Positions 6,438 through 16,819 of a stretch of 64,000 nucleotides of DNA are shown piece after piece. Under the pieces are notes generated by a model that was given only the letters and a program-made list of their open reading frames with translations, was not told where the DNA came from and made no database searches. Numbering within the stretch: position 1 is the stretch's first letter; each line of letters opens with the position of its first letter. Origin of the DNA: Roseomonas gilardii subsp. gilardii (GTDB lineage: Bacteria > Pseudomonadota > Alphaproteobacteria > Acetobacterales > Acetobacteraceae); NCBI RefSeq assembly GCF_023078375.1, contig NZ_CP095554.1, positions 930,001 through 994,000 of the forward strand. Reading direction: 5' to 3'. The position numbers were made by a program, and so were the translations under genes.

Positions 6438-6680
6438 TCGGCCTGGGAACCGGGAGGCCCTGCCTCCCGGACCCTTTGCTGAGAAAGGGGCCGCTCAGGG
6501 GCACAGTGTGCCCCCGGGACCCCGCCATGAGCGCTCCGCGAGGAGGAGTTATGGCCAGCCGGTCGCCATAGGGCACGACGGCGGGACGGCCCTCCTCGCG
6601 GAGCGCTCACAGGGTTCCCAGAGACCAACGTCCCTGGGCTGGGTGTCCAGAGGGACAAAGCCGCTCTGGCCCCGGCCCGA
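6438..6680. repeat. Structured intergenic repeat, copy A
   Basis: This roughly 240-bp repeat is shared with 14956-15195. It holds four successive inverted repeats: CCGGGAGG/CCTCCCGG (6450-6470), GGGGCACAGTGTGCCCC, a perfect 19-bp stem TGAGCGCTCCGCGAGGAGG (6528-6546) with its complement at 6591-6609 around a 44-nt loop, and a hairpin around CCAACGTCCCTGG. It separates the 3' ends of convergent phnF and phnE. A bidirectional termination role is inferred. The loop is inverted relative to copy B. Confidence 0.85.
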
Positions 6681-6688
6681 ACACCTCT

Positions 6689-13300: not shown

Positions 13301-13507
13301 ATGGACGAAGCCCTGGTGACGCGCGTGGCGGAGGATATCCGCCTCTGGACGGGTGTCGGACTGCCCAATGAGACCGGCCGGCAGATGGCGTCGATGGACA
13401 TCCCGAAGCTGATCGCGGATTTCGAAGCGCTGCGCGGCACGCTGCGCTTAGAGGACGAGCCTTCCTCCTTCGAGGCGGCGTTGCAGAGCTGCAAGGAGGG
13501 TGCGTGA
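13301..13507 (+). CDS. AtzG/DUF4089-like small amidase partner
   Basis: This 68-residue protein is mostly helical by composition, with LPNETGRQMASMDIPKLIADFEALRGTL and the C-terminal block EPSSFEAALQSCK. This resembles AtzG-type (DUF4089) proteins, GatC-like partners that AtzE-family amidases need for stability. The stop overlaps the ATG of the following amidase, so production is coupled one to one. A second small protein of similar kind sits before the other amidase at 16619. The assignment rests on size, motif and context. Confidence 0.7.
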   Translation: MDEALVTRVAEDIRLWTGVGLPNETGRQMASMDIPKLIADFEALRGTLRLEDEPSSFEAALQSCKEGA

Positions 13508-14952
13508 TGGACGCCGTGCCGATGGCCCCCTCCGCGGGTCTCGCCGGCCTGAGCCTCGCCGAGGCGGCCGACGCCTTCACCCGGGGTGAGGTCACGGCCA
13601 GCGCCCTGACCTTGGCTTGTCTCGACCGCATCGCCGCGCATGAGCCGGCGGTGAACGCCACCACCTGGATCGAGCGTGAGGCCGCGCTGGAGGCCGCTGC
13701 CGCCGCCGACAAGGCCCGTGCCGCCGGTGCCGCTTCCGGCCCGCTGGCCGGCGTGCCGATGGCGCACAAGGACATGTACTACAAGGCCGGCAAGCTCTCG
13801 ACCTGCGGCTCCGCCATCCGTGGCGACTTCCGCCCCGGCTACACCGCCACGGTCATCGACCGGCTGGAAGGTGCCGGCGCCATCACCATGGGCGGGCTCA
13901 ACATGGCGGAGTTCGCGCAGAACCCGACCGGTCACAACAGGCATTTCGGGGACTGCCTGAACCCCTGGAACGGCGACTACATCACCGGCGGTTCCTCCTC
14001 CGGCTCCGGCGCCGCCGTTTCCGCCCGCTTCGCCTTCATGGCGCTCGGCTCCGACACCGGCGGTTCGATCCGCCTGCCGGCCTCGGCCTGCGGCGTGGTG
14101 GGCCTCAAGCCGACGCAGACCCGCGTCAGCCGGCACGGCGTGATGCCGCTGTCCTTTTCCTGCGACAATGTCGGCCCGCTGGTACGTACCGTGCGCGACT
14201 GCGCCCGGGTGATGGGCGTCATCGCCGGGCATGATCCGAAGGACCCGACCAGTGCGAAGGAGCCGGTGCCCGATTACGAGGCCGCGCTGACCGGCGACCT
14301 GCGCGGGCAGCGCATCGGCGTGGCGGAGACGTGGTTCCTCGACGGTGCTGACCCGGACATCCTGGCTGCCTTCGAGGCTTCGCTCGACGTGCTGCGTGGC
14401 CGCGGCGCCACCGTCACGCGCATCAGGCTGCCGGTGATGGAGCAGGTGCTGACCTATGGCTCCGTCGTCAGCCGCAGCGAAGGCCCGACCATCCACGCCA
14501 ATTGGATGCGCGAGCGTCCGGGCGACTACGCCAACCATCTGAGCGGCCGCATGTTCCCGGGCTATGCCATCCCGGCCAGCTACTACATCGAGGCGCTGAG
14601 CCGACGCGGCCCGGTGCTCAAGGCTTTCTGTGACGAGGTCTTCTCGCAGGTGGATGTGCTCGCCATGCCCACCATCCCGCGCAAGATCCCGACGCGCGAG
14701 GAATGCCGCATCGACGCTGGCGATCCGGAGGCCATCCGCCGCTTCGGCCTGATCACGCAGAACACGCGGCCGATCAACTATCTCGGCCTGCCGGGGCTGA
14801 GCCTGCATTGTGGCTTCGACGACCGTGGCCTGCCCGTCGGCCTCCAGCTCGTCGGCCGCCCCTTCGCCGAGGCCCGCCTCATGACCGTCGGCGACGCCTA
14901 CCAGCGCGATACCGACTGGCACACCCGCATGCCCGAACTGCGTGCGGGGTGA
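13507..14952 (+). CDS. Amidase-signature hydrolase, AtzE-like (locus copy 1)
   Basis: The 481-residue amidase-signature enzyme has the full Ser-cisSer-Lys triad: Lys88 in PMAHKDMYY, cis-Ser163 in GGSSSGSGAAV and nucleophile Ser187 in GSDTGGSIR. Spacing matches characterised members of the family. ATG 13507 overlaps the upstream small partner's stop; a GTG one codon earlier is also possible. Pairing with an AtzG-like protein points to an AtzE-type enzyme acting on carboxybiuret-like, ureido or related amides. The actual substrate cannot be read from sequence. It converges with the second amidase across a structured repeat. Confidence 0.88.
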   Translation: MDAVPMAPSAGLAGLSLAEAADAFTRGEVTASALTLACLDRIAAHEPAVNATTWIEREAALEAAAAADKARAAGAASGPLAGVPMAHKDMYYKAGKLSTCGSAIRGDFRPGYTATVIDRLEGAGAITMGGLNMAEFAQNPTGHNRHFGDCLNPWNGDYITGGSSSGSGAAVSARFAFMALGSDTGGSIRLPASACGVVGLKPTQTRVSRHGVMPLSFSCDNVGPLVRTVRDCARVMGVIAGHDPKDPTSAKEPVPDYEAALTGDLRGQRIGVAETWFLDGADPDILAAFEASLDVLRGRGATVTRIRLPVMEQVLTYGSVVSRSEGPTIHANWMRERPGDYANHLSGRMFPGYAIPASYYIEALSRRGPVLKAFCDEVFSQVDVLAMPTIPRKIPTREECRIDAGDPEAIRRFGLITQNTRPINYLGLPGLSLHCGFDDRGLPVGLQLVGRPFAEARLMTVGDAYQRDTDWHTRMPELRAG

Positions 14953-14955
14953 TCG

Positions 14956-15195
14956 GGCGTGGCGCTCCGGGAGGCTCTGCCTCCCGGACCCTTTGCTGAG
15001 GGAGGGGCCGCTCAGGGGCATAGTATGCCCCCGAGACCCCGCCATGAGCGCTCCGCGAGGAGGGGGCTTCGACCGCCGTCGTGCCAAGTGGCGACCGGCG
15101 TGCCATCACCCTCCTCGCGGAGCGCTCATAGGGTTCCCAGGGACTAACGTCCCTGGGCGGGTGGGTTCCAGGGAGGGCAGAGCCCTCCCTGGCCC
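14956..15195. repeat. Structured intergenic repeat, copy B
   Basis: This is the second copy of the repeat at 6438-6680, in the same orientation. CCGGGAGG/CCTCCCGG, the GGGGCATAGTATGCCCC hairpin, the 19-bp arms (15045-15063 and 15110-15128) and the CTAACGTCCCTGG segment are all conserved. The final hairpin CCAGGGAGGGC/GCCCTCCCTGG is more perfect here. The 46-nt loop between the arms reads in the opposite direction to copy A. It separates two convergent amidase genes. Confidence 0.85.
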
Positions 15196-15203
15196 CGGCT
15201 GGA

Positions 15204-16619
15204 TCATTCCGCCGCGAGCAGGGCCGGGGCGGTGGCGCCCCAGGAGGCGGTGGCCTTCTCGACGACGCGGCCGGCGCGCAGCAGCGTGGCCTCCTCGAAG
15301 GGGCGGCCGACGAGCTGGGCGGAGAGCGGCAGACCGGAGGCGGAGAGGCCGGCCGGCATGGAAAGGGCCGGATTGCCCGTGACGTTGAAAGGCATGGACT
15401 GGATCGGCCAGAACACGGGCCGGTCCGGCGGGCAGTCGGCGAAGGCTGGTGCGGGGCCGAGGGCGCAGGCGGTGAGCAGGATGTCGCACCTCTTCAGCGC
15501 CTCGCGATTCACCGCGATGGAGAGCTCGCGGCGCAGGCGCTGCGCCTGGATGTAGTCCGCGCTGCTGATCGCGGCGCCGGTGACGATCCGCATGAGGAAA
15601 AGCTCGCCGTAATCCTGCGGCCGCTCGCGCAGGTCCTTCTCATGGATGGCGAAGGCTTCGGCGGTCAGGATCACGCGGCCGCAGGCGTTGAAGAGCGAAT
15701 AGTCGGGAAGCGTGATCTCCTCGACGATCGCGCCCGCCGCTTCCAGCGCCTGGCCGACGCGCTCGATCGCGTCATAGACCTCGGGCGAAAGCCCCTCGGC
15801 ATCGCGGTAGAGGTTGCGTGGCATGCCGACGCGCAGGCCGGCGACGCCATCCTCCAACCTGCTGCGCAGATCGGGCTTCGGCTTGTCGGCGCTCGCGGGG
15901 TCGAGCGGATCGAAGCCGGCCAGGAGCTCCGTGGTGATCGCGGCGTCCTCGACACTGCGCGTCAGCGGCCCGCAATGGTCAAGCGTGTAGGAGAGCGGGA
16001 AGACACCACGCCGGCTGATCAGCCCATAGGTCGGCTTGAGGCCCACCGTGCCGCAATAGGCTGCGGGGCCGCGGATCGAGCCGCCGGTGTCGGAGCCCAT
16101 CGCCATGCGCACCATCCCGGCGGCGACGGCGGCGCCGGAGCCGGAGGAGGAGCCGCCGGTGATATGGTCGGTGTTCCAGGGGTTGCGCGCGGGTGGGAAG
16201 GGGAGGTCGAAGCTCGGCCCGCCCATGGCGAATTCATGCGTCGCCAGCTTGCCCAGAAGCACGCCGCCACCTGAGGCGAGCTTCGCCGCCACGACGCTGT
16301 CCCCGGTGGGAACGTTGTCGATCAGCAGCTTGGAATGGCAGGTCGTGCGGATGCCGGCGGTGTCGTAGATATCCTTGAGCGCATAGGGGATGCCGTGCAT
16401 CGGCCCGCGGTCGGTGCCGGCGGCGAGTTCGGCATCGGCGCGCGCCGCATCGGACATGGCCCGCTCCTCCGTGACCAGCACGAAGGCATGCAGCGCGCCG
16501 TCGAGCTTCGCGATCCGGTCCAGCGCATGGCGCGTCAGGGCGGCGGAGGTCAGGCTGCCGTCGCGCAGCTTCGCCCCGGCCTCGGCGATGGAGAGGTCTT
16601 CCAGCTTCTGCTCGCTCAC
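15204..16619 (-). CDS. Amidase-signature hydrolase, AtzE/GatA-like (locus copy 2)
   Basis: The enzyme has 471 residues from GTG 16617-16619 (MSEQKLEDLSIAEAGAKLRDG). The triad is intact: Lys in GIPYALKDIYDTAG, cis-Ser in ITGGSSSGSGAAVA and nucleophile Ser in MGSDTGGSIRGPA. A longer open frame reads in from upstream, but the GTG overlapping the small partner's stop (GTGA) gives the normal length. It differs enough from the amidase at 13507 to be a separate specificity, not a recent duplicate. It diverges from the ABC importer operon, which suggests shared control and imported amide substrates. Confidence 0.87.
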   Translation of the reverse strand: MSEQKLEDLSIAEAGAKLRDGSLTSAALTRHALDRIAKLDGALHAFVLVTEERAMSDAARADAELAAGTDRGPMHGIPYALKDIYDTAGIRTTCHSKLLIDNVPTGDSVVAAKLASGGGVLLGKLATHEFAMGGPSFDLPFPPARNPWNTDHITGGSSSGSGAAVAAGMVRMAMGSDTGGSIRGPAAYCGTVGLKPTYGLISRRGVFPLSYTLDHCGPLTRSVEDAAITTELLAGFDPLDPASADKPKPDLRSRLEDGVAGLRVGMPRNLYRDAEGLSPEVYDAIERVGQALEAAGAIVEEITLPDYSLFNACGRVILTAEAFAIHEKDLRERPQDYGELFLMRIVTGAAISSADYIQAQRLRRELSIAVNREALKRCDILLTACALGPAPAFADCPPDRPVFWPIQSMPFNVTGNPALSMPAGLSASGLPLSAQLVGRPFEEATLLRAGRVVEKATASWGATAPALLAAE

Positions 16620-16819
16620 GGCGCCTGCTCCCGCGTGATGGTGTCCAGCACATAGATCCCCGCCGGCTCGGCGGCTGCGGTGCGCGGCTGGCGCAGGATC
16701 GGCATCATCTTCTGCAGGTCGCGATGGGTGGCGAGCACGCCGGCATAGCGCCCCGGCGGCAGGGTGATGCCCGCGCGTGAGAGCGCCATATCCAGTTCGG
16801 GATCGGTTTCGGTCGTCAT
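16616..16819 (-). CDS. AtzG/DUF4089-like small amidase partner
   Basis: This 67-residue protein starts at ATG 16817-16819, MTTETDPELDMALSRAGITL. The block LPPGRYAGVLATHRDLQKM and the acidic-Pro tail EPAGIYVLDT resemble the DUF4089/AtzG family, whose members partner AtzE-like amidases much as GatC partners GatA. The stop overlaps the GTG of the amidase, so the pair is translationally coupled. It is the first gene of a two-gene minus-strand unit divergent from the importer operon. Confidence 0.72.
   Translation of the reverse strand: MTTETDPELDMALSRAGITLPPGRYAGVLATHRDLQKMMPILRQPRTAAAEPAGIYVLDTITREQAP

Follow-up and report, generated by a model that had tools for sequence, protein, structure and literature searches.

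Two copies of a repeated hairpin element, copies A and B, occur in the window, by which we mean the whole stretch of 64,000 nucleotides that was analysed. The question raised by copy B is how the loop of a long hairpin could come to be reversed relative to its counterpart in copy A while the surroundings of the two loops keep one orientation. Such a reversal was claimed in an initial annotation of the window, and comparison of the two copies confirms it: positions 6558-6584 of copy A align with the reverse complement of positions 15073-15099 of copy B, with 24 of 27 positions matching and no gaps, and the three mismatches make up the central triplet. The flanks of the two copies also lie in the same orientation, as had been stated. 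Other details required adjustment. Arms of 19 bp had been ascribed to both copies, which is correct for copy A, but those of copy B are two base pairs longer. The inverted, ungapped match holds, but the block described as 34 nucleotides with about five mismatches is better drawn as 27 nucleotides with three, inside a loop of 44. Outside this core the match is weaker, and the entire loops reach an identity of 0.73 after reversal, with gaps. Copies A and B are in fact among the weaker reversed pairs; other pairs are 95-100% identical once reversed. Chance similarity and palindromy of the loops were both ruled out, as the loops score low against their own reverse complements, and 2000 loop shuffles gave a best identity in either orientation of 0.52 on average and 0.67 at most.

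The reversed loop is part of the central hairpin in a repeated element of about 250 bp that is apparently non-coding, a nested palindrome of five hairpins in the order outer, inner, central, inner, outer. The central hairpin is long; its arms of 18-21 bp are near-invariant and enclose a loop that is variable and about 40 bp in length. Copy B as a whole spans 14950..15206 and was placed, in orthologous group 9, by sequence, flank orthology and Pfam neighbours; apart from its central arms, neither the element nor its parts are assigned a strand. From left to right, copy B consists of an outer hairpin at 14967..14987 (CCGGGAGGC-TCT-GCCTCCCGG), an inner hairpin at 15015..15031 (GGGGCAT-AGT-ATGCCCC, with paired variants seen elsewhere by eye), the left arm of the central hairpin at 15044..15064 (plus strand, 21 bp), the 44-nucleotide central loop at 15065..15108, assigned to orientation 2 by loop alignment, the right arm at 15109..15129 (minus strand, 21 bp), a second inner hairpin at 15136..15157 (CCCAGGGAC-TAAC-GTCCCTGGG) and a second outer hairpin at 15168..15192 (CCAGGGAGGGC-AGA-GCCCTCCCTGG). 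The arms were defined from sequence, and the inner and outer hairpins from sequence and RNA folding; the predicted fold of positions 14941-15210 has an energy of -186.7 kcal/mol (z -8.8). Copy A, identified from the same kinds of evidence and assigned to orthologous group 5, has approximate ends at 6440..6685. Its central hairpin (6528..6609) is formed by 19-bp arms at 6528-6546 and 6591-6609, with a loop at 6547-6590 that sequence and loop alignment place in orientation 1; here, too, no strand is assigned.

According to Pfam, copy B is flanked by two convergent amidase-family genes (13504-14952 and 15204-16640 of the window) and copy A by a convergent pair encoding a GntR/UTRA regulator and an ABC-transporter permease. 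A simple ORF heuristic places at least 8 of the 14 elements in this genome between convergent genes. Judging solely by its position and fold, the element is probably a structured 3′-end element. At the gathering threshold, Rfam recognizes one tRNA in the window, and the element matches no curated family; a scan for consensus intrinsic terminators in the region of copy B (14900-15260) found none. A coding origin appears unlikely, the open reading frames that overlap the element being mechanical.

The genome to which the window belongs (G000; 4.62 Mb in two contigs) was compared with other genomes of its genus. Searching G000 with copy B gave 28 matches that correspond to 14 elements, the remaining 14 matches being the same elements detected on the opposite strand through their palindrome. 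Sites resembling the central arm with up to three mismatches number 50 in G000, versus 39 for a control in which the pattern was read backwards; with up to two mismatches there are 29, of which 28 form the arm pairs of the 14 elements. A search for stand-alone modules in 464 kb of G000 located the arm and inner-hairpin patterns only in the window copies, and outer-hairpin-like sites twice outside them (L098 and L105). Strong matches are found in 3 of the 15 genomes of the genus (G000, G006 and G011), and a fourth genome has one weak match. The exact arm pattern gave no matches in viral contigs, nor did plasmids match the element. Some copies are incomplete: L060 and L061 of G006 are truncated, and by eye we recognized half-shells that lack the central hairpin, L045 of G011 being a left half and L098 of G000 a stretch similar to a right half. 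In four copies (L039, L044, L056 and L053), an inner or outer hairpin has a second hairpin nested in its loop. As to genomic position, 13 of the 14 elements of G000, and likewise of G011, are in the dnaA-distal half of the main contig (C1); GC skew in 20 sampled stretches of G000 was too noisy to place the origin or terminus. One of these stretches, at 3080001-3100000 of C1 (L110), has a GC content of 0.51, compared with 0.68-0.73 in the other 19, and is likely a genomic island.

The orientation of the loop relative to the surrounding shell was called by alignment for 41 loops, 14 in each of G000 and G011 and 13 in G006. These counts leave out the duplicate-like or truncated copies L050, L060 and L061 as well as L045, a remnant without a loop. 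Relative to the flanks, the two orientations occur in a ratio of 8:6 in G000, 7:7 in G011 and 3:10 in G006, or 4:9 in the last if L055, a tie, is assigned to orientation 1 as in a later call. Pairs of loops in opposite orientations are, once reversed, as alike as pairs in the same orientation: mean identities for reversed opposite, same-orientation and unreversed opposite pairs are 0.687, 0.682 and 0.547 in G000, 0.728, 0.719 and 0.544 in G011, and 0.694, 0.679 and 0.559 in G006. Moreover, in G000 and G011 alike, 8 of the 14 copies (16 of 28 in total) have a reversed loop as their closest match within the genome. Both results imply that orientation is unlinked to the ancestry of the loop. Aligning more copies and scoring their orientation had been proposed in the initial annotation, and with the loops related and their orientation not tracking loop ancestry, the outcomes it had named as contrary to its claim were not seen.

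Individual pairs make the pattern plain. The loops of L038 and L033, at loci 8 and 3 of G011, match at 39 of 40 positions after reversal, and their flanks match in the same orientation at 59 of 60 positions on either side. An inverted spacer with arms and flanks in place is seen likewise between the loci L066 and L072, L141 and L139, and L193 and L194, as well as in the orthologous pair L071/L032. Identical loops are also shared between distant loci of G011 (L033 with L036, and L037 with L043), and genome-specific variants of the shell recur, by eye, at several loci. In G006, five loci (L049, L050, L051, L054 and L057), two of them near contig ends, have near-identical loops, and synteny is broken at L050/L051, which could possibly reflect either an assembly collapse or a real rearrangement.

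Grouping of loci by blastn of their flanks gave 14 that are common to at least two genomes, including groups 4 and 12, which are unmatched in G000, plus two that were seen only in G000. The latter two sites (L065 and L070) hold different genes in the relatives, and so offer no clean empty site and no target duplication. Between G000 and G011, 12 loci can be compared, and at 5 of them (loci 2, 3, 5, 10 and 11) the loop is oriented differently relative to the shell. Locus 2 is the cleanest of these, and the sole clean orthologous case of opposite loop orientation at a fixed locus: the loops of L071 (G000) and L032 (G011) match at 38 of 39 positions when one is reversed versus 23 of 47 when it is not, each arm matches at 24 of 24 positions, and the flanks match in the same orientation at 56 of 60 and 57 of 60. 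Loop identity after reversal is 0.825 at locus 3 and 0.78 at locus 10, but at loci 5 and 11 it is only 0.62 and 0.61, so that inversion there is indistinguishable from replacement.

Whole elements can be turned as well. With the neighbouring genes as reference, the element is reversed at 4 of the 14 common loci, i.e., at locus 5 in G011, locus 8 in G006, locus 9 in G000 and locus 13 in G006. A fifth case, locus 3 in G006, was recognized by eye; it involves the truncated copy L061, which our arm-anchored script had labelled unreversed. Copy A represents locus 5, and the whole of copy B, at locus 9, is inverted with respect to its orthologues in both G011 and G006. This inversion of whole elements and the sharing of loops between loci had escaped the initial annotation. 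What it had proposed, namely inversion across the arms by a site-specific or slippage process, is upheld to the extent that both orientations recur, including at the orthologous locus L071/L032, and replication slippage fits better than a site-specific reaction.

A covariance model built from the central 151 positions, with rough calibration and 10 candidates scored per genome, has matches at E<=0.001 in 46 of 299 genomes of the bacterial family, distributed over 22 of 102 genera. Inspection by eye of 17 loci of other genera (L119-L135) and of 20 stretches from four genomes indicated that the architecture of the shell is kept and that the arms and loop of the central hairpin vary from one genus to another. 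Six of the 17 loci have a central loop of 3-5 bases, so flipping would not be visible in them. Longer loops do occur in both orientations outside the genus. In genome G230, for which 40 of 59 first-look candidates were scored and 30 loci returned, the ratio is 14:11 in 25 parsed copies, with two uncertain (L172 and L176, at contig ends and of ambiguous frame). The draft assembly of this genome is fragmented (480 contigs, 86% complete), and its single copies call for care. The loops of its copies L141 and L139 are exact reversals of one another (27 of 27 positions), and their flanks match at 49 of 60 and 49 of 61 positions as read versus 38 of 63 and 38 of 61 if turned. Several G230 copies (among L136-L143) have, by eye, CTT-rich tracts after the outer hairpins on both strands, resembling a bidirectional terminator.

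In genome G241, 12 parsed copies have orientations in a ratio of 9:3. The loops of L193 and L194 are again exact reversals (29 of 29), with flanks matching at 55 of 62 and 55 of 63 positions as read versus 48 of 62 and 43 of 63 if turned; these shells are partly palindromic, and their flank identities are 0.89 and 0.87 as read and 0.77 and 0.68 turned. By eye, at least two kinds of central hairpin, unrelated to each other, occupy similar shells in G241 (L144 and L145 versus L146-L150). Genome G314, of the same genus as G241, has the inverted loop motif in 6 of 24 copies by eye; a script count of 16:6 (identities 0.745/0.707, arms 42/43) was set aside, since L231 and L235 had been dropped, L241 placed on the wrong hairpin, and L250 and L251 given weak frames.

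The best explanation, to which we give about an even chance, is that loops are inverted by template switching at hairpins, in combination with gene conversion between copies. At a stalled fork, the nascent strand copying the first arm would switch to the complementary arm on the opposite strand, copy the loop in reverse and switch back at the far arm, which would leave the stem unchanged and the loop reverse-complemented. Turning of the whole element could occur by the same process or by recombination across the outer inverted repeats, and ectopic gene conversion would spread versions of the loop between loci. That conversion must also act follows from the loops common to several loci. From the observed patterns, i.e., the two orientations, the reversed loops, the whole-element inversions and the shared loops, we infer the flip in place and the template-switch step with its strand and timing. 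Interstrand template switching is described, in the portions of the sources available to us, as producing both spacer inversion and homogenisation of arms (PMC8604942, PMC8794818), though the spacers given in those portions are far shorter than 40 bp.

Template switching would explain why inverted loops sit on intact stems across differing arms, and also why changes in the arms are matched outside the genus of the window. There, deviations are matched in both arms in 15 of 15 cases in G241, 13 of 15 in G230 and 32 of 35 in G314 (counted in 19 of its 24 copies, with L231, L235, L241, L248 and L251 left out). In the genus of the window, by contrast, none of 45 deviations in 41 copies is matched, including those in the outermost A/G column at the arm edge. 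Within the interior arm columns of G000 and G011, the figure is 0 of 10; the rare changes are one-sided, and the arms are nearly fixed. This contrast between the genus of the window and other genera is the strongest point against any single simple account. Two further observations speak against template switching: near-invariant arms with drifting loops would also be expected from a sequence-specific protein, and the ratios in G241 (9:3) and G006 (4:9) are not close to 1:1.

The main rival question is whether conversion alone yields the flips. Another copy could pair in inverted register via the arms and donate a reversed loop or hairpin by ectopic recombination or gene conversion, with no inversion in place, and we regard this as possible but rather unlikely. 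It would accord with the loops shared by distant loci of G011 and with the recurrent genome-specific shell variants, and loops at orthologous loci exceed cross pairs in similarity by only a small margin (0.754 vs 0.710, permutation p 0.03). Even locus 2 has a potential source, as L044, which lies 7 kb from L032 in G011, carries the L032 loop in the other orientation (38 of 39) and could thus have been the donor. However, pairing in inverted register would involve only the arm of about 20 bp, whereas the flanks of L038 and L033, at 59 of 60 on both sides, favour the direct register, and the loop of L071 has no close second copy in G000, the best reaching 0.80.

Inversion by a recombinase that recognizes the arms, which would make the element a strict miniature invertible segment, is improbable in our view. 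Its appeal is that the arms are near-invariant over 41 copies in three genomes while the loops vary, that the central arm contains an 8-bp palindrome (GAGCGCTC), and that genes for tyrosine recombinases (PF00589) are present in all three genomes of the genus (6, 18 and 14 matches). On the main contigs, however, none of these genes is closer to an element than 49 kb (G000) or 38 kb (G011), and we see no sign of a working switch. In addition, 26-44 bp would be a very small spacer from which to form a synaptic loop. One dedicated site-specific invertase is also at odds with the finding of reversed loops in genera whose arms, by eye, appear unrelated. The least probable account is that the central hairpin is a mobile cassette entering the shell in either orientation, its arms and loop turning together: the unrelated central hairpins in similar shells of G241, the half-shells and the nested hairpins could be read in this way, and with perfect arms a turned cassette looks like a turned loop, but G000 has no stand-alone central hairpin (all but one of its 29 closest arm-like sites being paired arms of elements), no complete shell without a hairpin was seen, and the Y1 (RAYT-type) transposase domain PF01797, present in 5 of 14 control genomes, is absent from all three genomes of the genus.

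A more far-reaching reading, which we put forward tentatively and with some doubt, is that in this nested-palindrome class, matched in 22 genera of a single alphaproteobacterial family, the orientation of hairpin loops is continuously reshuffled in living cells. If this is true, one genome could hold twelve or more inversion clocks, each independent of the others and each keeping a record of template switching at replication forks. Inversions of this kind have mostly been deduced from isolated events in which the spacer is a few bases long. The loops parsed here number 12 to 25 in a single genome, measure about 26-44 bp and occur in both orientations, and orthologous loci are available in sister genomes; the rate, strand bias and arm-length dependence of inversion would be directly measurable from long reads. 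There is also a warning, in that matched changes in bacterial hairpins can stem from copying errors and not from selection on RNA.

What is new is that the loops of a dispersed bacterial repeat family are present in both orientations, and this in several genera; a literature search, with most subscription journals outside its coverage, gave no description of the element or of inverted loops in dispersed repeats of bacteria. The element nevertheless has points in common with several known systems. Like MITEs such as the Correia elements of Neisseria, it is a small dispersed inverted repeat, but we do not class it with them because the two G000-only sites gave no clean empty site or target duplication, and its inner loop inversion is distinctive. 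Inversion of whole Correia elements is stated in the accessible part of PMC10969869, which cites a 2017 paper; PMC2649163, as far as available, speaks of large rearrangements only. REPINs, which are REP doublets, resemble the element in being dispersed intergenic hairpins with conserved ends, a less conserved spacer and compensatory changes, according to the available part of PMC3116915, but they are tied to RAYT transposases, and the element has five hairpins and is not classed as a REPIN given that the three genomes have no RAYT. That part of PMC3116915 contains no analysis of how loops are oriented. CGTC repeats are reported, in the accessible text of PMC3733652, to be missing in Acetobacteraceae. 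Nor is the element classed as a site-specific invertible segment, since no linked tyrosine recombinase was found on the main contigs of G000 and G011.

Template-switch mutations, known from yeast genes, rRNA and microRNA hairpins and including loop inversions in bacterial rRNA (in the portions available of PMC8604942 and PMC8794818), share with the element the inverted spacers; the homogenisation of arms is paralleled in G241, G230 and G314, but not in the genus of the window. As given there, those spacers involve 2-5 substitutions in yeast and are typically 4 nucleotides, up to 7-8, in rRNA, compared with about 40 bp here, and the mutations are scattered events, whereas here a whole repeat family occurs in both orientations. 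The element works like hairpin-loop inversion, which is described for minute inversions of chloroplast hairpins (trnH-psbA and others) in the accessible part of PMC2903610: within plant species, segments of 25-27 bp are inverted between flanking repeats of at least 18 bp and, as in the element, the stem is kept and the loop inverted, homoplasiously. The inversions covered there sit in chloroplast spacers, whereas the element described here is a dispersed bacterial family that adds whole-element inversion and the sharing of loops between copies.
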